Shown here piece by piece: positions 1,153 through 36,481 of a DNA stretch of 64,000 bases (the stretch's first letter is position 1; every line of letters starts with the position of its first letter). Below the pieces are notes generated by a model that made no database searches, was not told the origin of the DNA, and saw nothing but the letters and a program-made list of their open reading frames with translations. This DNA comes from Chitinophagales bacterium (GTDB lineage: Bacteria; Bacteroidota; Bacteroidia; Chitinophagales; UBA2359). The translations under genes were made by a program, and so were the position numbers. The stretch covers positions 205,332 to 269,331 of the forward strand of contig JAHDFD010000001.1 of assembly GCA_020628375.1 (NCBI GenBank), in the 5' to 3' direction.

Positions 1153-1860
1153 GTGGATTCTGTAGAAACAACTAAAAGGGAACAAGAACAAACTCAATTT
1201 ACAAATTCAGAAAGCCAGAATCCAATGGAAGTATTCTCGGCTAACAAAACATTTATGCCTCCCAAAAAGAAAGAAGCCAAAGAAAAAAAACCGAAAGAGA
1301 TCGAAATTATAGAGGATAGTAAAATGGCATTGATGATGTTTAAAACTGCTATCAGAAACCATATTGATCTGAGTAGCCTTGCTGATAATAAAGCGAATAC
1401 GATGTTAAGTGTAAACGCTTTAATTATTACAGTGGCACTTCCATTAATGATCTCTTACGTTGAAAGCAATAAATTATTGGTACTTCCAATGATTTGCTTA
1501 CTGATTACTTGTATCGCTTCGATGTATTATGCTACCGATGCAACAAGACCGATAAAATTACACGGAAAAACGAGCGACAAGTCGATAGAAAATGGAGAGT
1601 CGGATTTATTCTTTTTCGGTAATTTCTGTAACATGGAATATGATGAATACGAAGAAGGGATAGAAAAAGTGATAAAACGCAACGACTGGATGCAAAAATC
1701 CATTACCAAAGATTTGTTTTTCAGTGGTAAAGCTTTAGGAGATAAGTTCGATAACTTACGCCTTTCTTATACCATTTTTATTCGCGGCATGTTAACTTCT
1801 TCAGTCTTATTCGCAATAAGCGTTGGCATACATTTATTTTATGGGAATATTTTTTCGTGA
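1153..1860 (+). CDS. Stand-alone Pycsar-type transmembrane effector (DUF5706)
   Basis: A 235-residue protein. The first ~57 residues are disordered and Lys/Glu-rich; residues ~58-230 match the Pycsar effector domain (DUF5706/PycTM): 'FKTAIRNHIDLSSLADNKAN', hydrophobic segments at ~85-103 and 108-127, 'ATRP', 'FFFGNF', 'YEEGI', 'SITKDLFFSGKALG' and a last TM at ~208-230. In characterised Pycsar systems such proteins respond to cyclic pyrimidine nucleotides made by a partner cyclase and impair the membrane. Most Bacteroidota members I know carry an N-terminal HD domain; here it is absent and only the linker-like tail remains. No cyclase lies nearby. The start is GTG two codons after an in-frame stop; ATG at 1225 is an alternative. 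It precedes the SLATT gene by 117 bp in the same direction. Confidence 0.8.
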   Translation: MDSVETTKREQEQTQFTNSESQNPMEVFSANKTFMPPKKKEAKEKKPKEIEIIEDSKMALMMFKTAIRNHIDLSSLADNKANTMLSVNALIITVALPLMISYVESNKLLVLPMICLLITCIASMYYATDATRPIKLHGKTSDKSIENGESDLFFFGNFCNMEYDEYEEGIEKVIKRNDWMQKSITKDLFFSGKALGDKFDNLRLSYTIFIRGMLTSSVLFAISVGIHLFYGNIFS

Positions 1861-1977
1861 ATAAATAACAGGTATTTTCTTTGATTTGAACTCTGCAGAG
1901 ATTGGGTTTTATGCTCTTTTAGCGATACTTTTAGGCTAAATTATTTTTACCAGTTAGTGTATTGAAATTCAGTAATT

Positions 1978-2880
1978 ATGGCTGCACCCAATAATCACCA
2001 ATTAGAACATCAGGACTTTCCTAGTTTATTCAAAACTGCTGACAGGCATTCTATTGAAAGTCAACAGAAGTATTTGAATTGGATAAAGATAGAATTAGGC
2101 TTAATGGTTTTTGCTTCTTTTATTTCTATTTTCTCGATTACTAACCCAACTTATGGTTCAACCGTAGCTACAGTATCGGCTGCTGCCTTTGCCTTAGGCA
2201 TAATCATAACTTACTTTATCAAAAAAGCCAATTTGGAAGATGATTGGTATGTAAGCAGGGCTTTGGCGGAGTCGGCTAAATCACTTACATGGCGATTTGT
2301 TACAAGAGGCATACCATTTAAAAGTTCTGATGACGTGCAAGTTTATGAACAATTCAATGCTAGTATTGATGGGATATTCAAAGAAAACAAAGACTTTCTT
2401 CAGGTAGTTTTTGCCGATGATGATGGCTTACAGATAACAGAAAAAATGAAAGCCTTGCGTAATTTGAGTTTTGAGGAAAGAAAAGAACTTTATATGGAAG
2501 ATCGGGTAAGAAATCAGTTTGAGTGGTATAAACGTAAAACAGCTTATAATGAAAAAATGGCTACCCAGATCTTCAGGATCGTAATTGCCTTGCAAGCCAT
2601 TGCTTTTATTTATTCTATTTATTTGATATCGAATCCTGAAAGTCTGAATATAGTTTCGTTCATAGCCACTTTTGCGGTTGCCTTTCTATCGTGGATGCAG
2701 GTAAAACGCCATCAGGAGCTCTCAAAATCTTATGCTGTAACCGCCAATGAGATCAAAAGTATTATTAACAGAGCTAGTTTTATTAATGAAGAAGATTTTG
2801 CCGGATTTATTACCGATTCTGAAAATGCTTTTTCAAGGGAGCATACACTTTGGATGGCAAAACGAGATGTGTTGCTTTAA
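1978..2880 (+). CDS. Tandem SLATT/DUF4231 two-TM effector-like protein
   Basis: A 300-residue membrane protein with two helical hairpins: TM pairs at about 35-55 and 62-84, and at about 195-217 and 222-242, each followed by long amphipathic helices ('DDWYVSRALAESAKSLTWRF', 'SKSYAVTANEIKSIIN'). This matches DUF4231/SLATT proteins with an N-terminal SLATT_3-like and C-terminal SLATT_1-like unit. SLATT domains (SMODS- and SLOG-associating 2TM effectors) were described by comparative genomics as predicted pore-forming effectors of nucleotide-signalling conflict systems. Here it lies between a PycTM-type protein and a TIR-Sel1 array. Its TAA overlaps the opposing TIR-Sel1 stop (2877-2880), so there is no room for a terminator. 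The effector role is inferred from family and context. Confidence 0.78.
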   Translation: MAAPNNHQLEHQDFPSLFKTADRHSIESQQKYLNWIKIELGLMVFASFISIFSITNPTYGSTVATVSAAAFALGIIITYFIKKANLEDDWYVSRALAESAKSLTWRFVTRGIPFKSSDDVQVYEQFNASIDGIFKENKDFLQVVFADDDGLQITEKMKALRNLSFEERKELYMEDRVRNQFEWYKRKTAYNEKMATQIFRIVIALQAIAFIYSIYLISNPESLNIVSFIATFAVAFLSWMQVKRHQELSKSYAVTANEIKSIINRASFINEEDFAGFITDSENAFSREHTLWMAKRDVLL

Positions 2881-4604
2881 TTATAAATGTTGAGATCTTT
2901 TAAGATACTAATGGCAGGTTGGTAACCTTGTTCGGCGGCTTTTCTAAACCATTTCATAGCTTCGCTGTGGCTTTTTGCCACTTTTATTCCTTTGTAATAA
3001 GACAAACCTAAATTGTATTGTCCACCTGAATCTCCTTGTTCAGCAGACTTTATATACCACTTGACTGCTTCAGAAGAATTTTGTTCAACCCCCAGTCCTT
3101 TATCGTAACAAAAACCTAAGTTATTTTGAGCCATAGCATATCCTTGTTCAGCTGCCTTTATATACCATTTTACTGCTTCTGAATTATTTTGGGCAATGCC
3201 TTTTCCATCCGCATAACACACTCCTAAATTATATTGAGCTCTATCATATCCCTGTCCAGCTGCCTTTATATACCATTTTACTGCTTCTGAATTATTTTGG
3301 GCAATGCCTTCTCCATCCGCATAACACACTCCTAAATTATATTGTGCCATGGCATCTCCTTGTTCCGCAGCCTTTCTAAACCATTTTACAGCTTCTGAAG
3401 AATTTGGCTCAACTCCTTGTCCATTTGCATAGCAGCATCCTAAATTATATTGTGCCATGGCATCTCCTTGTTCGGCCGCTTTTCTATACCATTTAAACGC
3501 TTCATAATGATTTTGGACTATTCCTTCTCCAATTGCATAACACCTACCTAGATTATTTTGGGCTACTGCATATCCTTGTTCAGCTGCCTTTATATACCAT
3601 TTTACTGCTTCTGAATTATTTTGGACTACGCCTTCTCCTTTAGAATAACACACTCCTAAATTATTTTGGGCTGGCACATACCCTTGTTCGACTGCCTTTT
3701 TATACCATTTTACTGCTTCTGAATTATTTTGGGTTACGCCTTCTCCATTCTCATAACATAAACCTAAATTATTTTGAGCTGAAGCATATCCTTGTTCGGC
3801 TGCCTTTATATACCATTTTACTGCTTCTGAATAATTTTGGACAACTCCTCTTCCATATTGATAACACCATCCTAAATTATGTTGGGCTGCTGCATTTCCT
3901 TGTTTGGCTGCCTTTTTATACCATTTTACAGATTCGAACATATTTTCGCCAAAACCATCAACTACTAAATCCGAATATAGCACTCCTATATTCTTCATAT
4001 CTAAAGGTGTCAATCCCTCATATTCAAAATATCGTTGATAAATATTGGCACTTGCATTATTCTCATCTTCTTCATAAAATTTTCTGGCTAATGCTAAATC
4101 CTTTTCTATTTGTTCACTTATTTTATTGCTATCTGGCTCTTCTTTTATTTCCTTTTGTGATCCTCCTACACCATCGGGCACTAACACTTTAATAAAGGCT
4201 ATTATATCTCTTTTCCACGTTTTATGGTTTAGAGGAAAAGCATTGCGATATGCTATATCTTTCAAGCCCTCAGGCCAATGTTCTTCAGAAGGCATGGTTG
4301 CACCATCTACCAAAACAGGTATTAATTGTTTACCACAAGCCAGACTTTCGGTTATTTCCATGCGTACAAAATCGTTGCTTTGGAAAAGGCGATCACAAGC
4401 AAAGTTTTTACCAATAATTAGTAGTACAACATCGGTATTAGCTATGGCATCTTTAACCACCTTTCTGAAATCTACTCCAAAAGGGATATTATCTATATCT
4501 TTAAATAACGCTTCTTTTCCCAACTGTGCTTCTAAACTATCATACAATCTACCTGCACTTGCTTCGGTGTCGTTTCTTCGGTAGGAGATAAATATTTTGG
4601 GCAT
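2877..4604 (-). CDS. TIR-Sel1 repeat protein (copy 1)
   Basis: 575 residues from the 'MPKIFISYRR' start (an upstream in-frame Met adds 12 residues but lies upstream of the likely transcription start). Residues 1-~140 are a TIR domain: 'FISYRRNDTEASAGRLYDSL', 'LFKDIDNIPFGVDF', 'VVLLIIG' and 'DFVRMEITESL', with Glu83 in the position of the catalytic Glu of TIR NADases; then 'PVLVDGATMP'. After a linker, about ten 36-residue Sel1 repeats (A-x-K-W-Y-x-K-A-A-E-Q-G...A-Q-x-N-L-G-x-C-Y) run to the C terminus. Bacterial TIR proteins commonly hydrolyse or cyclise NAD+; the Sel1 solenoid is a likely sensing or scaffold module. No signal peptide, so cytoplasmic. Its TIR half is nearly identical to copy 2, while the repeats differ. 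Confidence 0.9.
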   Translation of the reverse strand: MPKIFISYRRNDTEASAGRLYDSLEAQLGKEALFKDIDNIPFGVDFRKVVKDAIANTDVVLLIIGKNFACDRLFQSNDFVRMEITESLACGKQLIPVLVDGATMPSEEHWPEGLKDIAYRNAFPLNHKTWKRDIIAFIKVLVPDGVGGSQKEIKEEPDSNKISEQIEKDLALARKFYEEDENNASANIYQRYFEYEGLTPLDMKNIGVLYSDLVVDGFGENMFESVKWYKKAAKQGNAAAQHNLGWCYQYGRGVVQNYSEAVKWYIKAAEQGYASAQNNLGLCYENGEGVTQNNSEAVKWYKKAVEQGYVPAQNNLGVCYSKGEGVVQNNSEAVKWYIKAAEQGYAVAQNNLGRCYAIGEGIVQNHYEAFKWYRKAAEQGDAMAQYNLGCCYANGQGVEPNSSEAVKWFRKAAEQGDAMAQYNLGVCYADGEGIAQNNSEAVKWYIKAAGQGYDRAQYNLGVCYADGKGIAQNNSEAVKWYIKAAEQGYAMAQNNLGFCYDKGLGVEQNSSEAVKWYIKSAEQGDSGGQYNLGLSYYKGIKVAKSHSEAMKWFRKAAEQGYQPAISILKDLNIYN

Positions 4605-4720
4605 AATTTTTTGTATTCTGTGTGGTTTACTTACTAACAAAAATAGATAAAATTTATTCAGTTTTGCTATAGCATACCTTTTCGATATTAATTTGAGGAA
4701 TGTTCATAATCAAGATTTAA
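4605..4720. repeat. Duplication junction between TIR-Sel1 copies 1 and 2
   Basis: This spacer, the first codons of copy 1 and the last codons of the next gene upstream recur at 6856-6971, apparently without differences, at a constant offset of 2,251 bp. It marks a tandem duplication whose unit ran from one gene's 3' end into the next gene's 5' end. Confidence 0.85.
4638..4645 (-). promoter_or_regulatory. Candidate -7 box of TIR-Sel1 copy 1
   Basis: The minus strand reads TATTTTTG, matching TAnnTTTG, 34 bp before the MPKI start codon. The surrounding AAATTTTATCTATTTTTGTTA is kept upstream of all three TIR-Sel1 genes although other spacer sequence differs at the third. No clear -33 box. Confidence 0.4.
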
Positions 4721-6855
4721 GCATTGAAGCGTTTTAAAACATTGATGGCGGGTTGGTAACCTTGTTTGGCAGATCTTTTATACAATTTAATAGCATAGGT
4801 GGAATCTTTTTGAACTCCATGCCCATTTTCATAAAAGTATCCCAAACCATACTGAGCAGCAGCATTTCCTTTTTCAACCGCTTTTCGATACCAATACACA
4901 GCTTCTGCATAATTTTTTGTAACCCCTTTACTATTCTCATAACAGTCTGCTAAGTTATTTTGAGCTGAAGTATTTCCTTGTTCAGCTGATTTTCGATACC
5001 AATTTACGGCTACCGCATAATTCTTTGTTACTCCTTTTCCATGCGCATAACACAATCCTAAATTATACTGGGCACTAGCGTTTCCTTGTTCGGCTGCTTT
5101 TTTATACCATTTTACTGCTTCTTTGTAATTTCGCTCAACTCCTTTACCTTCCTCATAACACACTCCTAAATGATATTGAGCGTTAGCATTTCCTTGTTCG
5201 GCAAACCTTCTATGCTGCTTTAAATTTGCTGAATTATCTCGTACTACTCCCTTGCTTTTTGCATAACAAAGTTCTAAACTAGTTTGCGCTTCAGCATCGC
5301 CTTGTTCGGCAGCCTTACCATACCAAAGAATTGCTTTATTATAGTTCTTCTCAGTACCCAAACCATTTTCATATAAATATGCTAAGTCAACTTGAGCTGA
5401 TAAATGACCACCTTCTGCAGCTCTTATAAACCAGACTAAAGCTATTTTATTATTTTGCACTACGCCTAAACCATTTCTATGTAGAATACCTATTCTATAA
5501 TTTGCATCAGCATTTTTTTCTTTAGAAGCTTTATGATACCATTTTAGTGCTTCCTCATAATTCTTTTCAACCCCTAAACCGTTTTCATAATAAAATCCTA
5601 AATGATATTGAGCTTTCACATGCCCCTGCTCTGCTGCCTTTCTATACCAGTTCGCTGCTGTTGTATAATCTTTTTTAACTCCTGAGCCATTTTCATATAA
5701 TCTCCCTAAACGAAACTGAGCATCAATATGATTTTGTTCAGAAGCTTTATTATATATCCTTATTGCTTCTTTATAATTCTTTCTTCCTCCTAATCCTTGT
5801 TCTAACAATAAACCTAAACTGAATTGAGCATTAAGATGGTCTTGACTTGAGGCTTCTTTATACCATTTTCGAGCTTCTTTATAATTCTGATCTACACCTA
5901 ATCCTTTTTCTAACAATAAACCCAAACTGAATTGAGCATTAAGATGACCTTGACTTGAAGCTTCTTTATACCATTTATGAGCTTCCTTATAATTCTGATC
6001 TACACCTAATCCTTGTTCATAACATTCTCCTATTCTATATTGAGCATTTGGATTACTCAATTCAGCTGCTTTTAGATACCATTCTAGCGCTTTTGCATAA
6101 TTGGTGGTAAATCCATTGTTCAGGTCACTATAAAATGTACCTATACAATACATATTCCTAGGTGTCAAACCATCATAATTAAAATACTTTTTATAAATTT
6201 TTGCCGATTCTACATATTCCCGTTTATTGTATAAGCTTCTTGCTAATGAAATATCTTTTTCAATTTTTATGAAATCTGATTTTTTCCTTTTAGTATTTTT
6301 TTGTTTTACATCTTTTGATTTAAGTTCTACCCCTTCAATGACATTAGATAATTCACTAGAAGACTTTATTTTGTCTTCATTTTGGGGAACTTCTTTTATT
6401 TCCTTTTGTGATCCTCCTTCACCATCGGGAGCTAACACTTTAACAAAGGCTATTATATCTCTTTTCCACGTTTTGTGGTTTAAAGGAAAAGCATTTCGAT
6501 ATGCCATATCTTTCAAGCCCGCAGGCCAATGTTCTTCAGAGGGCATTGTTGCACCATCTACCAAAACAGGTATTAATTGTTTACCACAAGATAGGCTCTC
6601 GGTTATTTCCATACGTACAAAATCGTTCGTCTGAAAAAGGCGATCACATATAAAATCTCTACCTATGATCAGTAATACGATATCTGTATTGGCTATGGCA
6701 TCTTTAACTACCTTTCTGAAATCTACTCCAAAAGGGATGTTATCTATATCTTTAAATAACGCTTCTTTTCCCAACTGTGCTTCTAAACTATCGTATAATC
6801 TGCCTGCGCTTGCTTCGGTGTCATTTCTTCGGTAGGAGATAAATATTTTGGGCAT
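4717..6855 (-). CDS. TIR-Sel1 repeat protein (copy 2)
   Basis: 712 residues from 'MPKIFISYRR'. The TIR domain (1-~140) is nearly the same as in copy 1, including Glu83 in 'DFVRMEITESL' and 'PVLVDGATMPSEEHW'. A Lys-rich linker of about 60 residues follows, then ~13 Sel1 repeats of 36 residues, ending 'AKQGYQPAINVLKRFNA'. The repeats have diverged strongly within the array (for example 'EARKWYKEASSQDHLNAQF' versus 'EAVKWYKKAAEQGNASAQY') and from copy 1; one repeat ('SANLKQHRRFAEQGNANAQ') has lost the KWY core. The pattern is a conserved catalytic module with variable repeat sensors. Expected activity is NAD+ cleavage or cyclisation by TIR proteins; the ligand is unknown. It lies between copies 1 and 3, all on the same strand with 112-bp spacers. 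Confidence 0.9.
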   Translation of the reverse strand: MPKIFISYRRNDTEASAGRLYDSLEAQLGKEALFKDIDNIPFGVDFRKVVKDAIANTDIVLLIIGRDFICDRLFQTNDFVRMEITESLSCGKQLIPVLVDGATMPSEEHWPAGLKDMAYRNAFPLNHKTWKRDIIAFVKVLAPDGEGGSQKEIKEVPQNEDKIKSSSELSNVIEGVELKSKDVKQKNTKRKKSDFIKIEKDISLARSLYNKREYVESAKIYKKYFNYDGLTPRNMYCIGTFYSDLNNGFTTNYAKALEWYLKAAELSNPNAQYRIGECYEQGLGVDQNYKEAHKWYKEASSQGHLNAQFSLGLLLEKGLGVDQNYKEARKWYKEASSQDHLNAQFSLGLLLEQGLGGRKNYKEAIRIYNKASEQNHIDAQFRLGRLYENGSGVKKDYTTAANWYRKAAEQGHVKAQYHLGFYYENGLGVEKNYEEALKWYHKASKEKNADANYRIGILHRNGLGVVQNNKIALVWFIRAAEGGHLSAQVDLAYLYENGLGTEKNYNKAILWYGKAAEQGDAEAQTSLELCYAKSKGVVRDNSANLKQHRRFAEQGNANAQYHLGVCYEEGKGVERNYKEAVKWYKKAAEQGNASAQYNLGLCYAHGKGVTKNYAVAVNWYRKSAEQGNTSAQNNLADCYENSKGVTKNYAEAVYWYRKAVEKGNAAAQYGLGYFYENGHGVQKDSTYAIKLYKRSAKQGYQPAINVLKRFNA

Positions 6856-6971
6856 AATTTTTTGTATTCTGTGTGGTTTACTTACTAACAAAAATAGATA
6901 AAATTTATTCAGTTTTGCTATAGCATACCTTTTCGATATTAATTTGAGGAATGTTCATAATCAAGATTTAA
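6856..6971. repeat. Duplication junction between TIR-Sel1 copies 2 and 3
   Basis: Second copy of the 4605-4720 junction (offset 2,251 bp). Similarity continues on both sides into the TIR coding sequence of copy 2 and the C-terminal Sel1 codons of copy 3. Confidence 0.85.
6889..6896 (-). promoter_or_regulatory. Candidate -7 box of TIR-Sel1 copy 2
   Basis: TATTTTTG on the minus strand, 34 bp before the MPKI start, in the same conserved 20-bp context as at 4638 and 8329. Confidence 0.4.
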
Positions 6972-8296
6972 GCCTTGAAGCGTTTTAAAGCATCGATGGC
7001 GGGTTGGTAACCTTGTTTGGCAGATTTTCTAAACCATTTTTCTGCTACTGAATGATCTTTATTAACGCCTTTTCCGTTATAATAACAAACACCTGTGCTA
7101 TATTGAGCTGAAGCTTTTCCTTGCTCAGCAGCTTTTCTATACCATTCTAAGGCTGCTGAATAATCCTGGCTTACACCTTCTCCATGGTAATAACTTTGTC
7201 CCAAATTATATTGAGCATTCGCATAACCTTGTTCTGCCGAATTCATATACCATTTTATAGCTTCCTTATAATTTTGTTGAACCCCTGTTCCAGTGTCATA
7301 ATACCACGCTAAATTACATTGAGCTGCGGCATTTCCTTGTTCCGCAGACTTTCTAAACCATTTTAGGGCTGCTGAATAATCCTTTTCGACTCCAATCCCA
7401 TTTGTATAACATATTCCTAAATTGTATTGTGCATTTACATTTCCTTGTTCTGCAGATGCTTTATACAAGTTTACAGCAGCTTCACAATCCTGAGTAACAC
7501 CTATTCCATTTTCATAACAATGCCCTAACTTATGTTGTGCTATAGCATTTCCCTGTTCCGCAGCTTTCCTATACCACCTTACTGCTTCATGTATATCTTT
7601 TGTGTATCCTTCAAAAACCAGATCTGAATATAATTCTCCAATATTTTTCATATCTAAAGGTGTCAATCCTTCATAATCAAAATAATTTTTATAAATATCA
7701 GCGCTTCCCTTATCATCATTTTCTTCATACAATTTTCGGGCTAAGACCAAATTATTTTCTATTAGGTTATTTGTATTGTTGCTATCTGTTTCTCCCTTAG
7801 TTTTGTTTACCGGTCGTTCACCTTCTATCTGCTTATTACCTACTTCAACTTTTTCTAATGCTTGTATAAGTCTTTCCTTGCTTTGCTCCCAATAATCTTC
7901 TCTAAGTGAAAAACCATTAATGTGTGAAAGCTCTTTCATTCCATTTGGTAAAGCCGTTTTACTTGGCATTATGGCATTATCTACCAGTATTGGAATAACT
8001 AATTTATCTTGTTTCAAAGCAGAACTAACTTCATAAGCAACGTGGTCATTTTCTATGAATAGTCGTTTTATTCCATTTTCTTCTATAGTTGTATAATGCT
8101 TACCAATTATCACTAAAATAATATCAGAATTCTTAACCGTTTCTTCCATTACTTTAACAAAGTTAGAACCAATAAGAATGTCATAAACATCAATAAAAAC
8201 ATTATCCTTTCCAAAATGATCAACTAAATCTTTATACAACTTATTAGAAGGCCAACTTGAGTCATCTCTTCTATAACTAATAAATATTTTGGGCAT
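6968..8296 (-). CDS. TIR-Sel1 repeat protein (copy 3, divergent TIR)
   Basis: 442 residues beginning directly with 'MPKIFISYRRDDSS', which supports the same start in copies 1 and 2. The TIR domain (1-~150) is clearly diverged: 'VFIDVYDILIGSNF', 'IILVIIGKHY', 'NDHVAYEVSSALKQ' with Glu89 as the candidate catalytic residue, then 'IPILVDNAIMPSK'. About six Sel1 repeats follow, ending 'AKQGYQPAIDALKRFKA', close to the end of copy 2. It therefore pairs an older TIR with a C-terminal end shared with copy 2. Cytoplasmic; TIR NADase-like activity is expected from the family. It lies downstream of carB on the same strand, separated by a terminator hairpin and with its own -7 box. Confidence 0.9.
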   Translation of the reverse strand: MPKIFISYRRDDSSWPSNKLYKDLVDHFGKDNVFIDVYDILIGSNFVKVMEETVKNSDIILVIIGKHYTTIEENGIKRLFIENDHVAYEVSSALKQDKLVIPILVDNAIMPSKTALPNGMKELSHINGFSLREDYWEQSKERLIQALEKVEVGNKQIEGERPVNKTKGETDSNNTNNLIENNLVLARKLYEENDDKGSADIYKNYFDYEGLTPLDMKNIGELYSDLVFEGYTKDIHEAVRWYRKAAEQGNAIAQHKLGHCYENGIGVTQDCEAAVNLYKASAEQGNVNAQYNLGICYTNGIGVEKDYSAALKWFRKSAEQGNAAAQCNLAWYYDTGTGVQQNYKEAIKWYMNSAEQGYANAQYNLGQSYYHGEGVSQDYSAALEWYRKAAEQGKASAQYSTGVCYYNGKGVNKDHSVAEKWFRKSAKQGYQPAIDALKRFKA

Positions 8297-16783: not shown

Positions 16784-16922
16784 AATTTCCTTAAAATATT
16801 TTATTTATTGAAGTTATTGGTTATATTTATTAAATCGAAATACTTCTTATAATCATTTAGTCAATATTGATTTAACAGAAGTTTTGATACCATTATTAAT
16901 TAACCATTAAATTTTTAACATT

Positions 16923-17045
16923 ATGAAAAAATTGAAAATTAAAAAATTTCAGAAAAACGCCATTGAAAACAAAAAACAGTTAAAGCAAACTGTGGGAGGG
17001 GCGGCAAAGAAGAAGGATATCCTTTTAGATTGTCTTGATTGCTAA
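16923..17045 (+). CDS. Double-glycine leader peptide 1 (DCLDC core)
   Basis: 40 residues: a basic leader 'MKKLKIKKFQKN...LKQTVGG' (1-26) and a 14-residue core 'AAKKKDILLDCLDC'. The leader fits the Bacteroidota GG-leader natural-product precursor pattern (MKKLKLKK...GG), whose members are made ribosomally, cleaved after GG by a C39-type peptidase and often modified. The core has a Lys cluster, a hydrophobic stretch and two cysteines in the last four residues. No modifying enzyme or C39 transporter is in the window. ATG is preceded by an AT-rich, SD-less leader. Function unknown; RiPP or secreted signal are the leading ideas. Confidence 0.8.
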   Translation: MKKLKIKKFQKNAIENKKQLKQTVGGAAKKKDILLDCLDC

Positions 17046-17088
17046 TTCATACCTATCATTATTAATTAACCATTAAAATTCTAACATT

Positions 17089-17211
17089 ATGAAAAAATTG
17101 AAAATTAAAAAATTTCAGAAAAACGCCATTGAAAACAAAAAACAGTTAAAGCAAACTGTTGGAGGGGCGGCAAAGAAGAAGCATGTTTTAGTAGATTGTC
17201 TTGATTGCTAA
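17089..17211 (+). CDS. Double-glycine leader peptide 2 (DCLDC core)
   Basis: 40 residues. The leader (1-26) is identical in protein sequence to peptide 1; the core is 'AAKKKHVLVDCLDC'. Only three core residues differ from peptide 1 and the invariant part is again DCLDC at the extreme C terminus. It begins 44 bp after peptide 1 with the same upstream block. Confidence 0.8.
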   Translation: MKKLKIKKFQKNAIENKKQLKQTVGGAAKKKHVLVDCLDC

Positions 17212-17257
17212 GGACTCATACCTATCATTATTAATTAACCTTTAAAATTCTAACATT

Positions 17258-17374
17258 ATGAAAAAATTGAAAATTAAAAAATTTCAGAAAAATGCCATTG
17301 AAAACAAAAAACAGTTAAAGCAAACCGTAGGAGGAAATAAAAGACATATTCATGCTGACTGCCTTGATTGCTAA
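17258..17374 (+). CDS. Double-glycine leader peptide 3 (DCLDC core, short)
   Basis: 38 residues, the most divergent core: 'NKRHIHADCLDC' after an identical leader. The AAKKK block is replaced by NKR and two histidines flank the Ile, yet DCLDC is kept, so selection appears to act on the terminal motif and on a basic segment before it. Confidence 0.8.
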   Translation: MKKLKIKKFQKNAIENKKQLKQTVGGNKRHIHADCLDC

Positions 17375-17421
17375 GGACTCATACCTATCATTATTTAATT
17401 AACCTTTAAAATTCTAACATT

Positions 17422-17544
17422 ATGAAAAAATTGAAAATTAAAAAATTTCAGAAAAATACTATTGAAAACCCTAAAAAGTTAAAGCAAACTGTGGGAGGGG
17501 CCGCAAAGAAGAAGAGCATTCTTGTTGACTGTTTTGATTGCTAA
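17422..17544 (+). CDS. Double-glycine leader peptide 4 (DCFDC core)
   Basis: 40 residues with leader changes at three positions ('NTIENPKKLKQTVGG') and core 'AAKKKSILVDCFDC'. The Leu between the two DC pairs becomes Phe, giving VDCFDC, close to the LDCFDC found inside the secreted protein at 19427-21805. A terminator follows 9 bp after the stop. Confidence 0.8.
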   Translation: MKKLKIKKFQKNTIENPKKLKQTVGGAAKKKSILVDCFDC

Positions 17545-17552
17545 AATTAATG

Positions 17553-17587
17553 AAGCAGTGAATTGACCATTTTTCAATTCACTGCTT
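17553..17587 (+). terminator. Terminator of the peptide array (shared with convergent gene)
   Basis: Perfect stem AAGCAGTGAATTGA (17553-17566) / TCAATTCACTGCTT (17574-17587), 7-nt loop, then T-rich sequence. It overlaps the last codons of the opposing gene, so it likely works in both directions. Confidence 0.85.
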
Positions 17588-19426: not shown

Positions 19427-21805
19427 GTGTACAAGTCATATATAAGTTGCTTACTCTCTCTTCTTCTGCACTTTGGATTAGTTGCTAATTGTGATTATCA
19501 GACAATCCCATTTCTTATTGGTGCTGAAGATTATTGTGACGAAGTCGGTATAGATACTAATACCTTTTCAAGTGGTGGACAATATTTGCACAATATAGAA
19601 CACAACGATTGGGTATCTTATAATATAAATGTTCCTGCTACTAATATATATACCTTACGTTTTTCTTATGCAAAGAATAGCCCGACTGGAAGTATGACTA
19701 TTACTCAGGATGGTCAAGCAGGTGCGAGCTTTGTTCTTAATCCCACAGGTAGTTGGGAAAACTACCAAATAGTAGAGCAAACCATACCATTGGTTGCTGG
19801 TTCTTCAACCTTAAAATTTACATTTACTAATCCCACTGCACCAACCAATGGAATTCTGAATTTAGACTTTTTTCAAATTTATGCTAATTGCGAACCAGTA
19901 GGTACAGCCTGTGATGATGGGAATATAGCTACTAATAACGATGTAGAAGATGGTAATTGTGTTTGTAGTGGTACACCATGTTCTCCTACACAAATCCCTG
20001 CACTTATTGAATCGGCAATGTATTGTAATGGCTTTGGAACAGTGTTAATAGATGGGGCTTCAGCTCATATTGAACATGGCGACTGGCATGCCTATCAAAT
20101 TAATATTCCACAAACCAAAACCTATAATTTTATTTACAAATATGCTAAAAACAGCTCTGGTGGTAGCATGAATCTTTACCAAGATGGTTCTTTTATTACA
20201 ACCATAAATATTCCTCCTACCAATAGTTGGAATGACTTTAATATACATACACAAAAGATAACACTGTCCGCTTCTTCATCTTCTTCTTTACGAATGGATT
20301 TTGAGTATCCTGAAGCTCCAGAAAATGGTATTCTCTCTTTAGATTATATCAGTATTCAGGAATTAGATTGTGATGATATATCTATTCCAACTACAACAGC
20401 TGTACAAGCTGAAACTTATTGTGATAAAGTAGGCATACAAATCGTAAATAATGGGACTAGTGTTGGATATACCAACCATAATAATTGGGTAAGTTATAAT
20501 ATTAGTGTTCCTGCAAGTCAGGAATATAGTTTTAATTACCACTATTCAAAATTAAGTGCTGATGGAGCATTGAAGATTTATCAGGATAATGTTTTGGTTG
20601 CCGATATTAATTCACCTGCTACGGGAAGTTGGACAACTTATGACAATCATAGTGTACCTATTAACTTACAGGCTTCCGCCTCTTCTGAGTTAAGAGTCGT
20701 TTTTGACAACGCTACTTCTCCTCAAGCAGGTGTAATGAATCTGGATTATTTTACTATAAATACTATCGACCCCTGTGAGAATTTCTCTTATTTTGGAAGT
20801 CATTCTATCAATAATGGAAATTTGGTTAATAGCACAAGCGTTGACTGTCAAATTGGAGACCTCGTTAGGTTAGTTCCAAGTATTAATGCTAGCTGGGAGT
20901 GGATAAATCCAGCAGGAAGTTCAGTTATACTTAATGAACTGTCTTTTACCATTTCAAATGCTAATCAATTTGGAACATATACTGCAAGTTATACCAATGA
21001 AGATAATTGTGAAGCAAGCTTAACCTACACTTTAAATTCAAGCTGTCCCCTACCTGGAACAGCCTGTGATGATGGTAACTCCAACACAGAAAATGATGTA
21101 GAAGACGGAAGCTGTAATTGTGCCGGAACTTTAATGGCATATCGTATTAGCATGAATACAGCTGTCAGAGGATATAAACATATTTATCTTGATTGTTTCG
21201 ATTGTAAGATGCACAAAGATCTGAATGATCTTAATTTGATTCCTAATGCTCAACCATTTAACATTGAACCATTTTATTATAATGGCAACGAATCTATCAA
21301 CCCTGTTCCTGATACTATGGTTGACTGGATATTGGTTGTAGCCAGAGATGGTGCTGGTAATGCTTTGGATAGGATTGCGGCTATTATGCATCAAGATGCA
21401 AGTGTTACCAATATTAATGGTAGTTCTGAATTGATTTTTGAAAATCTACCTATTACCGGACAATATTATATCAGTGTACATCATAAAGGTCATTTGGGTA
21501 TTATTTCTGATCAACTTATCGATGGGAATGCCTTTGTTGATTTTACCGATGAAAATAATATAGAAGGAGATAACCAAGCTCAGGTTTTAGATGGTGATGC
21601 CTACATGCACTCTGGTGATTATAATAATAATGGCGTTATTAATTCCGAAGACTTTAATGAATGGTCTTCTTCTGGTGGTGAAGTAAATGTTTACAAACCT
21701 TATGATGCTGATGGTAATGGTATTATTAATAATCTGGATTATAATGCCTGGGCGAACAATCGATCAAAACTTGGGGCAGAACCAATTATCGATGCTGATT
21801 ACTAA
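19427..21805 (+). CDS. Secreted triple-CBM6-like, dockerin-like protein
   Basis: 792 residues, GTG start followed by a signal peptide ('SYISCLLSLLLHFGLVANC'). Three CBM6-like beta-sandwich modules occur at ~25-160, 185-310 and 320-440 (shared 'HNDWVSYNI', 'GSMTI.QDG', 'GSW..Y', 'LNLDYF'). An Ig/PKD-like domain follows (~445-545), then a 'GTACDDGNSNTENDV' Cys linker also used in the protein at 37950-40787. The ~570-720 domain ('LIPNAQPF', 'VDWILVVARDG', 'YYISVHHKGHLGI') is shared with the protein at 61595-62824. Two Ca-binding dockerin-like loops ('GDYNNNGVINSEDFN', 'YDADGNGIINNLDYN') close it. Likely binds extracellular polysaccharide. It contains HIYLDCFDC where relatives usually have no cysteines. 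Confidence 0.85.
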   Translation: MYKSYISCLLSLLLHFGLVANCDYQTIPFLIGAEDYCDEVGIDTNTFSSGGQYLHNIEHNDWVSYNINVPATNIYTLRFSYAKNSPTGSMTITQDGQAGASFVLNPTGSWENYQIVEQTIPLVAGSSTLKFTFTNPTAPTNGILNLDFFQIYANCEPVGTACDDGNIATNNDVEDGNCVCSGTPCSPTQIPALIESAMYCNGFGTVLIDGASAHIEHGDWHAYQINIPQTKTYNFIYKYAKNSSGGSMNLYQDGSFITTINIPPTNSWNDFNIHTQKITLSASSSSSLRMDFEYPEAPENGILSLDYISIQELDCDDISIPTTTAVQAETYCDKVGIQIVNNGTSVGYTNHNNWVSYNISVPASQEYSFNYHYSKLSADGALKIYQDNVLVADINSPATGSWTTYDNHSVPINLQASASSELRVVFDNATSPQAGVMNLDYFTINTIDPCENFSYFGSHSINNGNLVNSTSVDCQIGDLVRLVPSINASWEWINPAGSSVILNELSFTISNANQFGTYTASYTNEDNCEASLTYTLNSSCPLPGTACDDGNSNTENDVEDGSCNCAGTLMAYRISMNTAVRGYKHIYLDCFDCKMHKDLNDLNLIPNAQPFNIEPFYYNGNESINPVPDTMVDWILVVARDGAGNALDRIAAIMHQDASVTNINGSSELIFENLPITGQYYISVHHKGHLGIISDQLIDGNAFVDFTDENNIEGDNQAQVLDGDAYMHSGDYNNNGVINSEDFNEWSSSGGEVNVYKPYDADGNGIINNLDYNAWANNRSKLGAEPIIDADY

Positions 21806-24346: not shown

Positions 24347-27300
24347 TTAGTGCTTGATAAACTTCGTATTCACTACACTGTTTCCATCTTGTAAAGTAAT
24401 GAAGTAAGTACCGATCGTATAATCCTGAACATCCAGTATTAACGTATTCTCACCACCTTCAACATCTGTTTCAATGTACTCAACTACCTTTCCGGTTACA
24501 TCATATACAGTTACGAATACAGTATTTGAAACCGTTGCCTGATAATCGATATACAACGTAGCACTTGTTGGTACCGGTCGTACACTGATAATCGTTTCTT
24601 CTGAAACTCTTACCAATTTGATCACTTCTGATACAACTTCTGTATTTCCTTCAAAATCTGTTGCTTTCAAACGGTAGAAGTTTTCACCTGTTTGTGCTTC
24701 TATATCCATGAAATTATAAGCTGAAGGTGTACTGCTGTTGCCAGCACCATTTACATAAGTAATTACTTCAAAATCGATTCCATTGAAAGAACGCTCTAAA
24801 GTGAAGAAATCATTCTCATTTTCTGTAGCTGTTGTCCAGAAAACATTGTTTCTTTCACGCTCTACTTCTCCTTCAAAAGTAATCAACTCTATTGCTGTAA
24901 CAGTACAGTCAACAATTGGTCCTCCATAAGTAACTTCACAATCATTTGCATCAACTATTAAAACTGTATAGTTGGTCAAATTATCATAAGGGCCAAATGA
25001 GAATCCTTCTTCTACCGTTTGTGTTTCTCCATTTACAGTAATAGTATATGGTGCTTCACCACCGATAATAGAACCAATAACATTGTAGGCTGTTCCTCCA
25101 CTATTACAAGGGTTCTCAATTTCAAGTACAATATCATCACAACTCTTCGAGCATTCTCCCGGTTGTCCGCTTAATGCTAAGCTAGGACAAACACCTGCCG
25201 GATCGGCTATTACAAAATTGTAAGGCGTTTGATCAGGGAATGAACCAATAACTGTTAAACCTGCACTTACACCTTCTTCATTAAGCGTTCCTGAAACATT
25301 ATATGTTCCACTTCCACCACTTATCAGAATAGCAAGCGAATAAGTACTTCCATCTTCACTACATTCTGTAATGATTTCAGCACTGATCGGCGTATCGCAA
25401 ACATCATCAGCACAATCTACAGAACCAATAATTCCTTCAGAAATACCACAAGCATTTTCCACATAGAATATTACTTCACCACTTTCTCCTGCATCAGCTG
25501 TATAACTATCTCCTGTGAATATTTGTCCGTTAACAACATGTGTTATCGTCGAACCTTCACATGCAGTTATTCCCACACTACATCCATCTTCAGCAGTAAA
25601 TAACTCCACTCCATTATTCGGATCAGGAAGAACGTTAATTTCAAAAGTAACCGAGGTTGCTTCTGTACAATATTCAGCTCCAGCAGGAATAGTAGCAGAA
25701 ACTTCCATAGTCATAATATCACATGAAGTATTCTCCATAGCTTCAATTGAGATCATTGTAACACCCATTTCTCCGGTTGACCAGATAATGTCATCTTCAT
25801 CAGCATTATCTACTATTACTTCCAGATCAAGCATTTCGCCTGCACAAGCAGTCAATTCTCCTATACCAGCTCCGGCGATCATAATTTCAGGACATGGCTC
25901 CAATACTACATTTACATAAGTATCATCATCATCCGTAACTTCTTCTCCAGAATCAGTTCCTGTAGCTGTTACTGTTGCAACGTTGATAAAGTCTTCTGTT
26001 ACATTATCAATCGTACATTCATAACTGAATAAATCTCCAGGCATTAATGGATCAAACTGGTAAACAGCATCACAATTAGGTGATAATGGATCGCTTACTA
26101 CAATATTCGATAATGGTTCAGTACCAATATTGGTAACTGTAATAGTGAATGTTGCAGTACCTCCGCTATAGATCGTCTGGAAGTCATTCTGATTGTCAGC
26201 ATCATCTTTCACGATTAGAATAGCAGGTGCACCAGTTACTAAACAATCTTCAACCGTAATGGTAATTTCTGCTGCATCTTCCGGACAAGCATCAGTACCA
26301 CCAACTGTATAAGTGAAAGTATAAGTTCCTGTTGCGAATCCATTTGCATCGAATAAAGAAGCAGCTGCATTTCCGTCAGCATCAGTAAATATACCACCTG
26401 TATCTGCACCTTCTAATAGTTCAGTCAGGTTTGCTATTGAGTTTCCTTCTTCTGCGTTATTACAAACTGTTGCTGCAACATCTGCACCTGCTGTTGGTGC
26501 ATCACCTACACTTACAGTTACATCATCAGATGCTGAACAGATATAGTCAGTACCTGAAATCGTTGTTATTCCAAATACGGTAACTGTATAAGTAGCAGTA
26601 CCATTTGGTGTTACCGAAATTGAAGCAGTAGTTTCTCCTGTACTCCATTCAAATGTAGCATTAGGATCATCTGAACTAGCTGTTAAAGTAATTGCATCTC
26701 CACCACAAGCAAAGATGTCTTCTCCTGCATCTACACTTGGTACAGAATTGAATACTGCAAATGCTGTTGCAGTATATTCACAATCAGCTGCATTTGTTAA
26801 TGTTACTGTGAAACTTCCAAATCCATTTGCAACATCATCATTCGTTACAGTAATAGAACTTGTTGTTTCACCATTACTCCATTCATAAGAATAACCATCC
26901 GGTGCCGTTAATGTAATCGTTTCACCAACACAAGCTACTTGCGATTCGATTGAAATATCCGGTGTATCTGTTACCTCAACCATTTGACTCGCAGAACAAC
27001 CATTTCCATTATCTGTAACTGTTAACGTAAAAATTCCTGCAACTCCAGGCATATAATCTGCTGTATTCGCTACTAAATTTCCTTCAGCATCTACCCATTC
27101 GTAAGTATAATCACCTTCAGGTCCATTAATTGTACCTGATGCATCACATGGTGCAGACAAAGTAAATACAGGTCCTTCGTTTATAGAAACATCTACAGTT
27201 ATAGGCTCACTCACACAACCACTTCCAGTTGCGATAATTGTATAAGTTCCTGCTTCTGTTACAGTTAATTCACTTACATTCTCTGTTACGTTTCCACTTG

Positions 27301-30300
27301 GATCGGTAAATGTGTAACCTGAAACCGGAACATCACCTGTAATTTGTAATCCTGCATTAATGATTCCAAATGAGTTCGTATCATTAGAAATCCACCCATC
27401 ATTCGTTAACTCTAATGATGAACCTTCTGGTTCTCCATCCTGAGCGACTAATATATCAGTAGTTTGTAAACCAGCAGCAGGACCATCTACTGCTTGTAAT
27501 ACACCACCATAGCTAATGAATTCAATGATCGTTGAAGAACAAGTGTCAACTAAAGCAATACCATCTGGTCCATTTTGGATACCACTGATTGGGAATGAAA
27601 TTGCTCCATATCCATTACTTTGGTCTGCTATAGTATTTCCACCTAAGAATACTTCATTATATTCAGCACCATTACTACCATTGTACAAATAAAGTGCGTA
27701 ACAATCAAGTGATCCTACAGGACCGGAAATCTCAATAGCTTCACCTTCATCACTACCTGCATCGTCATAATGAATTTCTGAAATAAATGCTGTATTTCCA
27801 TTACCATTGATTCCTCCACCAGTAGGAGAAATAATAATTTCATCGCTTGAACATGCAGCAATTGGGTCAATTGCGTCTGGTGCTTCAAAACCAGCACAGA
27901 AGTTGCAATCCTGAACGGTTATCGTAAATACTGCAGTATCGCCTTCACATGCTCCGTTTGCCGGAACAATATATTGATAATTATATGCTCCTGTAAAAGT
28001 GCCATCCAGATTAATTTCTGTTGTACTTAAAGGCATATCAACAAAATCTAACCAAGTACCATTATCATCTGCAGTTGCATCCAATAATGTAGCAATATCA
28101 ATTACTGTATTTCCTTCAGCACTATTGCTACAAACTGAAGCAAAACTATCGGCACCTGCAAAAGGTTGTGCATCAACGGTAACTGTTACCGGAATAGCTG
28201 CACTTGTACAGAATCCATCAGTAGCTACAACATAAATTGTTGAAGTAATACCTGCAGCAGGACTTGGATCGAAAGAGTTTCCTGTTCCTAACAAGTTACC
28301 ACCCGTAGCAGCATCATAGTATTCAAATGTAACTGGTGAAGCGGTTGCACCAACTTCCCCTGAAACAATTACGTCGTCAACTCTCCACGTTCCACCAGAA
28401 CTAGAAGCACCAACTCCATAAATTCTAAAGCAAGCAGTAGCACCTGCAGCAACGCCAAAATTCAGATTGATTGCTTCATTTGCTGTACTAACAAACGATA
28501 GGTTTGTTGAACCAGAAGCAACAGCATTTGTATAACCATCTGCTGAAGTATATACTTCATACGTATCAGGTCCTGAACCTGAAGCATCATCGAAGAACGA
28601 TAATGTATTAATTACCAATGATTGCGACGAACTTACACAGAACTCGAAGTAATCAGTTGCTTCATTATCTTCCCAATCGCTTGAAGAAAGTGCATCTCCA
28701 CCTCCGTTTCCAGCAGGGAAACCAGCCGCATTCAAACCAGCACCTAAAGTAGCATCACTACCCATTACGTCAACATTATCTGAAACGCCACCTACAAGCT
28801 CTCCTTCAAAATCCCATGTTACTGTAAACGGTGTACCAGAAGTTCCTCCACCATTATTATCAGTTGGGAATATTTCTGTGTCTCCACCTTCACAAACGGT
28901 TATATTATCAACTGAAGGATCGACAAAAGTTGAACAATCAACTCCGCAACCACATGCTACACCATTTACAGAACCCATAGCCGGAGCTGAAAGATCATAA
29001 CAACCAGTAACAGTTCCGTTTACTAAACCATCAATTGCATCACCTTCAGCAAAGGCTGGTGCATCACTATCCTGATAATTCAGTGCATACACTTCATAAG
29101 AGCCATCTGCTAGGTTCGGGAATGTACCGTCTGTTGCAATTGCGATGATCGTTCCACCCTGAACTAAAATATAAGTTTGAGAATAAGTATTACCTGCATC
29201 ATCGGTGCTTGCGAATGTGCCATCTTCTGCCACTGCGATTATAGTTGCTTCATCGCCATTACAAGGACAAACATCCAATACAGAAATTACCTGCTCTCCA
29301 CAATCACTTGGTTCTATAATTGCCACCAAAGTAGTATTAGCACATCCTGTTACATCGTTCGTTGCAGTTATTACATAGTTACCAGCCATTAAGCCTGTGA
29401 ACGAACCACCTGTAATTGTATAAGTAACATCTGTTTCAGGTGTAACAGTAATTTCACCACCTGCCAGATCATCACAAGTTGGTTGTAATACAGAATAATC
29501 TATTGTAGGAATTTCAGCATTAGCACCAACTGTTACTGTATTCGTTCCTGAACAATTAGTTGCATCATCAGTAGCCGTAATCGTATAAGTACCAGCCGGA
29601 ACATTCGATAATGAAGTTCCTGCTACACCATTGATCGTATAAGTAACTCCTGTTTGAGGATTATCAATAGTGATAGTACCACCTTCTGTACAAGTTGCAT
29701 CTGTTGCTTGTGCACTAACTGCTACTGTTACCACATCACTTCCAATTGTAATATTTTGCATAGCTTCACAACCAGTAACCGGATTTGCAGCTACCACTTC
29801 GTAAGTACCAGCAGCTAAATCGGCTAAATTGGTTGTTACACCATTGATCGTGTAAGTAATACCTGCCTGTGGATTATTGATCGAAATTGACCCAGGTCCA
29901 TCACAAGTCTCATTGCTCACAATTACATCTATAGTTGGAATATCGTCAGAAGTTCCAATAGTAACCGTATCTGAATCTGAACATCCTGTGTTATCATCAG
30001 TAGCAGTAATAGTATAAGTTCCTGCATTCAGGTCTTCAACAGGGCTAGCTGTAATAGCTACCGGAGCGCCTCCACCCACTGAGTAGGTATAGCTTACACC
30101 TGTATCGATCGTAATCGTAATACTTCCTCCCTGAGTACAAGTTGCATCTGTTGCAGATGCTGTTATCTGAGGTAAAGGATTAACTGTAAATACAATTGTT
30201 ATGTCTTCAACACAACCTTCATCTGAAGTGAAAGTGTAAGTAAATGTTGCTCCATCTCCTACTGTTACATTTGTTGTAATCAAAGGCTCACCCATAATAT

Positions 30301-33300
30301 CTGTCCATTCTCCTGAACCACTCACACCATTTAATTCAGCAGGCGTATAAGTTGCTAAATCAATAGTTGTTGCATCAGCACAAAGTGCAGGATTTGTAAT
30401 ATCTGCTAAATCAGGGATACATTGGTTTACGAAACCTTGAGTTACCTGTAGATCGTAACAAGGGTCATCGCTTGTTCCCACAACTAAATTGAATGTTGCT
30501 CCAAGTACCAAGTTATCCAGAACTGTTTGAACGTTTGCATCGTTTTGATCGTAGTTCAGCGCATACATACTATAAGTACCAGTTGGAACATCGGTATAAA
30601 TTCCATCGTTAGAAACCTGAACAACCAAGCCTGTTGCATTATCAACTAATACATAAACCTGAGTATTCATTTCATTGAATGAACCAGGTTGAGCAGCTGC
30701 GCTTAAAGTTGCATTTGAACCATCACAATTACAAACAGTATCTACTAAAGGAATTTCTTCTTCTAAAGTAAAGAATGCCGGATCATAATCATCTGAATCT
30801 GCTGGGTTATCTGAACCACCTGTGCTATCATCATTGATATCATTATCTGAACCAATTTCAGGATCAGTATTGGAATTATCACCTGGAGTTGAATCTTCAT
30901 CAACTGCTACATCTCCATTTTCATCGCGTGCATCTGTAATTTCCGCATTGTTAATGATCTGTCCTGCACCTACTGCAGAAGCGTCTATTACCAAGTCGAT
31001 CTCTACCTGAGCAGAACCACCTGCCGGAATCGAAGCAATTTGTGTTGTTGTTACCACATCACCAGCCATTCCTGACCAAGTATAAGCTGTAGTATTAGCC
31101 GGATCAAAGTTCAATCCTGCCGGAACATAATCGGTAACATCGATTAAAGTAGCCTCAACATTACCCTGATTATATACGGTAATAACGAAGGTAATTTCCT
31201 GTCCTACCGTATAAGGACCAGCCGTTAATAAATCTTTCGTTAGTGCAAGATCAAATACTTCAACCGTACAATCAGCAACGACTACTGTTACCGTTGCTAC
31301 ATCATCTACACAAGGTGAAGTTCCGGCTGCGGTATAAGTAAAGGTATAAGTACCTTCAGCAATACCATCGAAATCAACCATCATCGGGTTAGAAATATCT
31401 ACCCCTGACGCACTTGTTTCAGCCCATGCACCTCCTGCATCTTCAACTCCACCTAAAACAGCAGCTAAATCAGCAATAGAACCATCGGCTGTTGCATTAC
31501 ATACATTTAGTAAGCCATCGTTACCTGCATTTGGAGGTGTGATGACTGTTACTGTAACATCATCTGTACCTTCACATCCATTTCCATCAACCACATCTAA
31601 AGTATAAGTTGTTGTAACTGCCGGAGAAACGGTTATATCTTGTGTCGTTTCTGATGTACTCCATGCATAAACTGCCAAACCATCAGGTCCCATTAGCGTT
31701 ACCGATTCACCTAAACAAATCGTTTGATCCATTAGTGTAAATGTTGGTAAGTCATTCACAGTTATTGTTGCAGTACCTGAAACTGTTCCTGTACATCCAT
31801 TGGCATCTGTAACTGAAACCATAGTATAAGTAGTATCGTCTGCCGGAGCTACTGCTATAGCATCGCCACTATTATAATTAGTTACTGTGATATCAGTTGT
31901 TCCATCATTGTAAACAATTGTATATGGACCAACTCCACTTCCTGCAATTGTTACGGTTAAATCTGAAGCTGTATCATCTGCACAAACAGATGCATCACCA
32001 GCAAGTGTAGCTGCAATGTCATTAGGACAAGTATTACAATCATTTACAGTAACTGTTACAGTTGCCACTGCATCTACACAAGGGCTTGTTGCTGTTACTG
32101 TATATTCAAAAGTATAAGCACCTACTGCTACACCATCAAAGTCAACCATTGTCGGATCAGTAAGGTCAACACCTGAAGTAGTTGTTTCAGCCCATGAACC
32201 ACCTGCATCCGGTGCTCCCATTAATGCTGCTGATAAATCGGCGATCGTATTTCCATCTGCACTATTTGAACAAGCAGTAGCTGTTCCGTTCATCCCTGCA
32301 TTTGGAGGTGTGATAACTGTTATTGTTGCTGTTCCATTTACTGTACCCGTACACAAACCTGTTCCACTTTCATCAACTACCGATAACAATGAATAGCTTG
32401 TAGTTGTAGTTGGTGAAACGGTAACTACATCACCACTATTTACACCGAACAATGGGATATTTGCTGCTCCGTCTGTGTAAGTAATTGAGTATGGTCCTGT
32501 TCCGCCTCCTGTAATTGTAATTGTTAGATTTGATGTCGTTGCATCTGCGCAAACCGAATTATCACCTGTTATTGTGGCAACTATATCATCTGGGCAACAT
32601 TGGCAATCTTCTGCTGGGAACATTATCATTTCAAAAGTGTAGCAGTAAACATTTCCGTTTACATCATCTAAGTTTCCTGCAATAGCTTCGTTAATATCTA
32701 AAAGTACATCACCCTCAAACCCTGCAACTTCAGAATCTAAAACGTTGAAAGCATAAACTGTGTATGCTGCATTATCTGCTAAACCAGTAAAACTTGCTGG
32801 TTGTTGCGCTGCTGGCGTTTGTGGGGTTGCCACAATAGCACCACTTGCATCTACTAATACATAAACCAAAGTATAACCATCTTGATTCTGGTTACTTGCA
32901 ACAGTATTAATAGTGTAAGATTGTGGAGCGGCACTACAATCACAAACATTATTTTGAATTACTAATACTTCTGTATCGTCAGTATCTGTAACTTGCGTAT
33001 TGGGATCATTCACATCATTAGCTGTTACAGTTGCTTCATTAACAAAACCCATTGTTACACCTCCTGTTGTTGAACAATTATAAGTAAATGATTCGCCTAC
33101 ATTAAATACCGCATCTAAATTACCTACTGCTGATATTGCTGTCGCTGTCATTGTAGCATCCATTGCACAAGAAACAGTTATTGCATCGGTAATTACAACA
33201 TTTGTTAAATCTGCACTTCCATTGTTGGTTACTGTAATTGTAAATGTAGCATCTGCTCCTGACATTACATTTTGTGTATCGTCAGCGTTATCAGCATCAT

Positions 33301-36430: not shown

Positions 36431-36481
36431 TTTTAAACTAAGATTTTGGTTAATAAATTTTTCCTTTAATCTTAGCAATGA

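Follow-up and report, generated by a model that had tools for sequence, protein, structure and literature searches.

Three tandem arrays in one Chitinophagales genome encode short double-glycine peptides with a C-terminal cysteine pair

What are the products of four very short genes that follow one another as near-repeats, each with a double-glycine (GG) leader and a pair of cysteines at its extreme end, and how might they be processed? The genes lie within a 64,000-nucleotide stretch of DNA (the window), which corresponds to C30:205332-269331 of a 3.30-Mb genome in 41 contigs with a completeness score of 69%. The reading developed below, drawn from sequence and given a probability of roughly 0.5, is that they belong to a C39-processed family of secreted peptides with a trans-acting exporter, a terminal dithiol and a bacteriocin-like or signalling repertoire.

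The window array (array A) is on the plus strand. Gene 1 (16923..17045, 40 aa) encodes the leader MKKLKIKKFQKNAIENKKQLKQTVGG and the core AAKKKDILLDCLDC. Gene 2 (17089..17211, 40 aa), gene 3 (17258..17374, 38 aa) and gene 4 (17422..17544, 40 aa) have leaders ending in TVGG, followed by the cores AAKKKHVLVDCLDC, NKRHIHADCLDC and AAKKKSILVDCFDC, respectively. The leaders share the pattern MKKLKIKKFQKN[A/T]IEN[K/P]K[Q/K]LKQTVGG, and the C-terminal end is DCLDC in three of the four peptides and DCFDC in the other. TRF places the tandem array at 16891..17544 (+), with 3.9 copies of a 166-bp unit and 87% matches, and an alignment of the units reveals the common upstream stretches ATTATTAATTAACC[A/T]TTAAA..TTNTAACATTATG. 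A preliminary description of this DNA reported four tandem genes of 38-40 aa with GG leaders, units of about 166 bp and DC[L/F]DC ends, all of which the open reading frames and TRF confirm. Its end coordinate, 17544, also stands, but its start at 16886 falls inside the repeated upstream sequence, and the first ATG is at 16923. The array is closed by a terminator-like hairpin of 14 pairs (17553..17587) at the 3' end of a convergent 511-aa gene. This hairpin conforms to the terminator consensus on the minus strand, and its plus-strand tail is weaker.

The array is not the only one in the genome. A search with peptide 1 finds array B, comprising three paralogues on the minus strand (C30:155255-155668, equivalent to L013:9256-9669), which is on the same contig about 67 kb from array A and outside the window. 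Its peptides end in IDCLEC, as in the example with leader MKRTKKIKIKKFEKQTLQEKQTKQTVGG and core KFKHQLIDCLEC. A genome search with TIGR04149 reaches array C, which consists of four paralogues on a different contig (C2:7072-7690, +) whose peptides end in CLEC without the preceding Asp, as in the example with leader MKKIILKNIGTKQALREKELLVVKGG and core NGGNNEQVRGYKITQSCLEC. Arrays B and C each close with a terminator-like hairpin, as array A does, and the family totals at least eleven genes in three separate arrays of one genome. In approximately 430 kb on three contigs, a mechanical filter for short Lys-rich GG reading frames passes only these eleven and one Cys-free neighbour. Array C is headed by a Cys-free GG peptide (L053:1310-1474, +, on C2; leader MNKKFKALALKTKDQKAIKGG, core VINNSHSPTYFSSNGQDSVLALTSANGETGSIA). 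It is also adjoined by a gene for a DUF1905/OmdA protein (L058:7972-8505, -), whose Pfam title is 'Bacteriocin-protection, YdeI or OmpD-Associated', and which is a possible immunity candidate.

When the eleven peptides are aligned, the GG and both terminal Cys residues are invariant, Leu follows the first terminal Cys in 10, and the Asp before that Cys is absent from array C. Seven paralogues end in CLEC, four of them without the preceding Asp, and for this reason C-terminal C-[LF]-[DE]-C (a CxxC) describes the family better than DCxDC does. The invariant DCxDC end proposed earlier holds within array A, where x is L or, once, F, but across the family only the CxxC is invariant; the seven paralogues are homologues that retain both the GG and the terminal Cys pair. 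The pattern CLxC-stop occurs 12 times in the whole genome, compared with three times in a reversed control; eleven of these matches are the peptides themselves, and the twelfth lacks a GG. The DCFDC sequence of peptide 4 also occurs, in frame, as part of YLDCFDCKMH in a 792-aa CBM6 protein encoded downstream (window ~21191-21205, +), and no other long frame in the 430 kb contains such a motif. Lying in frame within a long protein, it is treated as a coincidence, not as a link to the peptides.

Array A is a strong 166-bp tandem repeat, and such an element could carry spurious reading frames within a DNA repeat. This explanation is close to negligible, however, because each of the three arrays shows a bias toward synonymous substitutions and because diverged arrays at other loci repeat the protein pattern. 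Within array A, substitutions are mostly synonymous (pS 0.38, pN 0.08, dN/dS 0.16 by the Nei-Gojobori method), and dN/dS is 0.31 within both array B and array C. The VGG and DCxDC codons of array A vary only synonymously, with GGG/GGA, GAT/GAC and TGT/TGC exchanges for Gly, Asp and Cys, except for the one L-to-F replacement, and change in the CxxC end is likewise mostly synonymous. The dN/dS of 0.16 and the closure of the array at a terminator-like hairpin establish that the array A reading frames are real genes under protein-level constraint. A lack of coding constraint, which the preliminary description named as grounds for rejecting the family, is not what is seen in this genome, where the ratio is 0.16-0.31.

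The window contains no maturation enzyme, as was claimed for it. The genome has one C39 family member (113.6 bits, against a cut-off of 22), which is a C39 peptidase-ABC exporter (L014:5937-8123, -) with an adjoining HlyD adaptor. Its peptidase domain (L014:7674-8123, -) aligns to the solved ComA and PCAT peptidases and retains Q, C, H and D at the active site, so that the C39 ABC transporter anticipated elsewhere in the genome is indeed present with intact catalytic residues. It is unlinked to all three arrays, and this separation counts against the C39 reading. A GG stands at the leader-core junction of the short precursor in all eleven peptides. Published residues for C39 leader recognition are L(-12), E(-8), L(-7), V(-4) and GG (PMC6363468), and three of the four array C leaders match them (LKEKELLVVKGG, LREKELLVVKGG). 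Arrays A and B fit only partly, which also counts against this reading: array A has L at -7 but E at -12, and array B has L at -12 but T at -7.

We propose that the Lys-rich leader is recognized and cut after the GG by the C39 peptidase-ABC exporter with its HlyD adaptor. No array has its own exporter, so this exporter would act in trans. Leader removal and export in trans are the most likely course, because the one C39 exporter found in the genome is unlinked; no maturation enzyme lies beside the arrays. The released cores would be 12-23 residues long, with C[LF][DE]C at the C terminus and with the residues between the GG and the CxxC diversifying among copies. Outside the cytoplasm, the two Cys residues would most likely become joined by oxidation in a local disulfide within the CxxC, or else act as a reactive dithiol, and the sequence alone fits a disulfide, a free thiol or a modified Cys equally well. 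The products would likely be a limited set of peptides, bacteriocin-like or signalling in nature, that act in competition or signalling. No immunity gene or receptor was recognized beside the arrays, and immunity proteins are small and diverse.

Judging from their sequences, further modification of the peptides is possible, and the main rival to the C39 reading is that they are precursors of ribosomally synthesized and post-translationally modified peptides (RiPPs). The terminal Cys pair would then be modified before export, in trans, by a grasp-with-spasm enzyme pair or by an enzyme encoded in the third of the genome that is missing, which we regard as possible but doubtful. A grasp-with-spasm locus is present about 10 kb from array B (~C30:142282-145172, -). 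It encodes a SPASM maturase, an ATP-grasp protein and a thioredoxin-like protein (C30:142282-144915; L057:14283-16916), together with a GG precursor of 70 aa (L052:1363-1575). The maturase exceeds its cut-off (TIGR04193, 215 versus 175 bits), whereas the ATP-grasp protein is below its own. The peptide leaders weakly match TIGR04149 (GG_sam_targ_CFB), a family of Bacteroidota GG precursors named for radical SAM (rSAM) modification, with a best score of 22.6 bits, below the curated cut-off of 25. Graspetide precursors of Bacteroidetes frequently have conserved Cys residues and several precursors per locus (PMC8939145), and invariant core residues among variable ones, as in these peptides, are typical of modification sites.

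On the other hand, the grasp-with-spasm system has its own adjacent precursor with a different leader (MIKFEDFKK..VKGG.., L052:1363-1575), nothing links the system to the CxxC peptides, and no maturase lies beside any of the three arrays, the nearest rSAM/SPASM gene being the one about 10 kb from array B. The ester links of graspetides require Thr or Ser together with Asp or Glu, and five of the eleven CxxC cores have neither residue for ester or lanthionine chemistry. Of the radical SAM and LanB enzymes mentioned in the preliminary description, the genome contains the former, as the SPASM maturase, but LanB, the dehydratase that defines class I lanthipeptides, was not found with PF04738 in this genome of about 69% completeness. 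Absences from such an incomplete genome are weak evidence. Nor does the failure of a single family model to find a protein weigh much, because Pfam PF13186 missed the SPASM protein, which NCBIfam recognized. A bolder form of the RiPP proposal is a new class, represented by a library of eleven or more precursors spread over the genome. Their C[LF][DE]C would be turned, in trans, into a sulfur heterocycle or crosslink at the C terminus while the preceding residues diversify; this we consider unlikely.

The position of the two Cys residues raises two further alternatives to the disulfide or dithiol of the C39 reading. Cypemycin, a type A linaridin, ends in CLVC. Its C-terminal Cys is oxidatively decarboxylated and aminovinyl-cysteine (AviCys) is formed (PMC9927463). 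By analogy, an HFCD flavoprotein decarboxylase could make the C-L-x-C end into an AviCys ring; in all eleven peptides, as in type A linaridins, the C-terminal Cys is free and another Cys stands three residues before it, and an AviCys end is chemically possible. However, a crude motif search of the approximately 430 kb of three contigs finds no HFCD-like reading frame, no linaridin enzymes are seen near the arrays, the linaridin cleavage motif PxxxTP is absent from all eleven peptides, and the cores are Thr-poor where linaridin cores are Thr-rich. An AviCys end is accordingly very improbable. Alternatively, the peptides might be secreted to bind Zn or Cu by using the CxxC with its Asp or Glu, the C-terminal carboxylate and, in several, His. 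Every peptide does have an acidic CxxC with a terminal carboxylate, and of the seven cores in arrays A and B, four contain His. Metal binding is nevertheless improbable, because neither His nor the first Asp is conserved across arrays, and no metal-regulated or metal-transport genes were noticed beside them.

In general, GG peptides are common among Bacteroidota, and this C-terminal end was seen nowhere else. Among 20 genomes of the same taxonomic family, profile A1 gives only weak unrelated matches outside the source genome, and among 395 genomes of the class, profile A2 finds the source genome and one weakly matching GG peptide without the CxxC end. The latter peptide (L059) has two Cys residues and terminates in ...KELKQTMGGYQYPNLCFDYESGKYYKC, thus ending in Cys and not in CxxC. 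A leader-independent pattern, DC[LF]xC-stop, was searched in 398 genomes of the order; its outside matches do not stand in a fitting context, and their number is close to that of the control. The 78 matches to CLxC-stop that were read in the 20 genomes of the taxonomic family include no GG peptides. A profile search of a wider collection of genome contigs gave no match, and no family member was found in the plasmids and viral contigs searched. A GG-to-DC[LF]xC pattern, covering only Asp-containing ends with TGT as the final Cys codon, has 42 matches in 84,980 species, none of which is a GG peptide.

The preliminary description proposed a search for homologues across Bacteroidota; seven exist in this genome and none was found outside it, and a broad family in the phylum is not borne out. 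The best reading of these sequence comparisons is a lineage-specific family, with a GG peptide having this end found in no other examined genome. The family may be wider within the genus, because the single congener examined is just 61% complete. No paper describing such a C-terminal end was found in the literature searched, which is a weak negative.

Among known systems, the family is best filed with the C39-dependent GG peptides, in whose manner it appears to work, and it falls short of the TIGR04149 cut-off and lacks the graspetide and class I lanthipeptide features that were tested. It resembles the C39/PCAT (AMS) precursors in its short cationic GG leader, in the L-12/E-8/L-7/V-4 residues of array C and in the C39 ABC exporter of its genome. 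It differs from them in that the exporter is unlinked, the 12-23-aa cores have an invariant CxxC, and no immunity or accessory genes are recognized nearby. Prochlorosins and class IIb microcins, which have several GG precursors with variable cores and shared trans machinery, offer an analogy only: no ProcM-like or siderophore-attachment enzymes are seen here, and the cores are much shorter.

Several other genes occur in the window. A PycTM (Pycsar effector, PF18967) protein and then a two-domain SLATT protein (SLATT_3 and SLATT_1) are encoded at 1153-2880 (+), and no cyclase gene is seen beside this pair in the window. Three tandem genes at 2877-8296 (-) encode TIR-domain proteins with Sel1 repeats, two of which have near-identical N termini; these proteins give weak ThsB and bSEFIR matches in PADLOC. 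A 4043-aa secreted repeat protein is encoded at 24347-36478 (-), and more repeat-rich secreted proteins follow, to 40787.

GG peptides are usually discovered by searching next to exporters or maturases. The arrays described here have no such neighbours at any of their three loci and would probably escape mining that relies on gene clusters. They raise the question of which trans machinery reads the peptides, and why both Cys residues sit at the extreme end. The eleven short peptides (12-23 aa), with their common CxxC and variable cores, constitute a concrete set that can be synthesized and tested.
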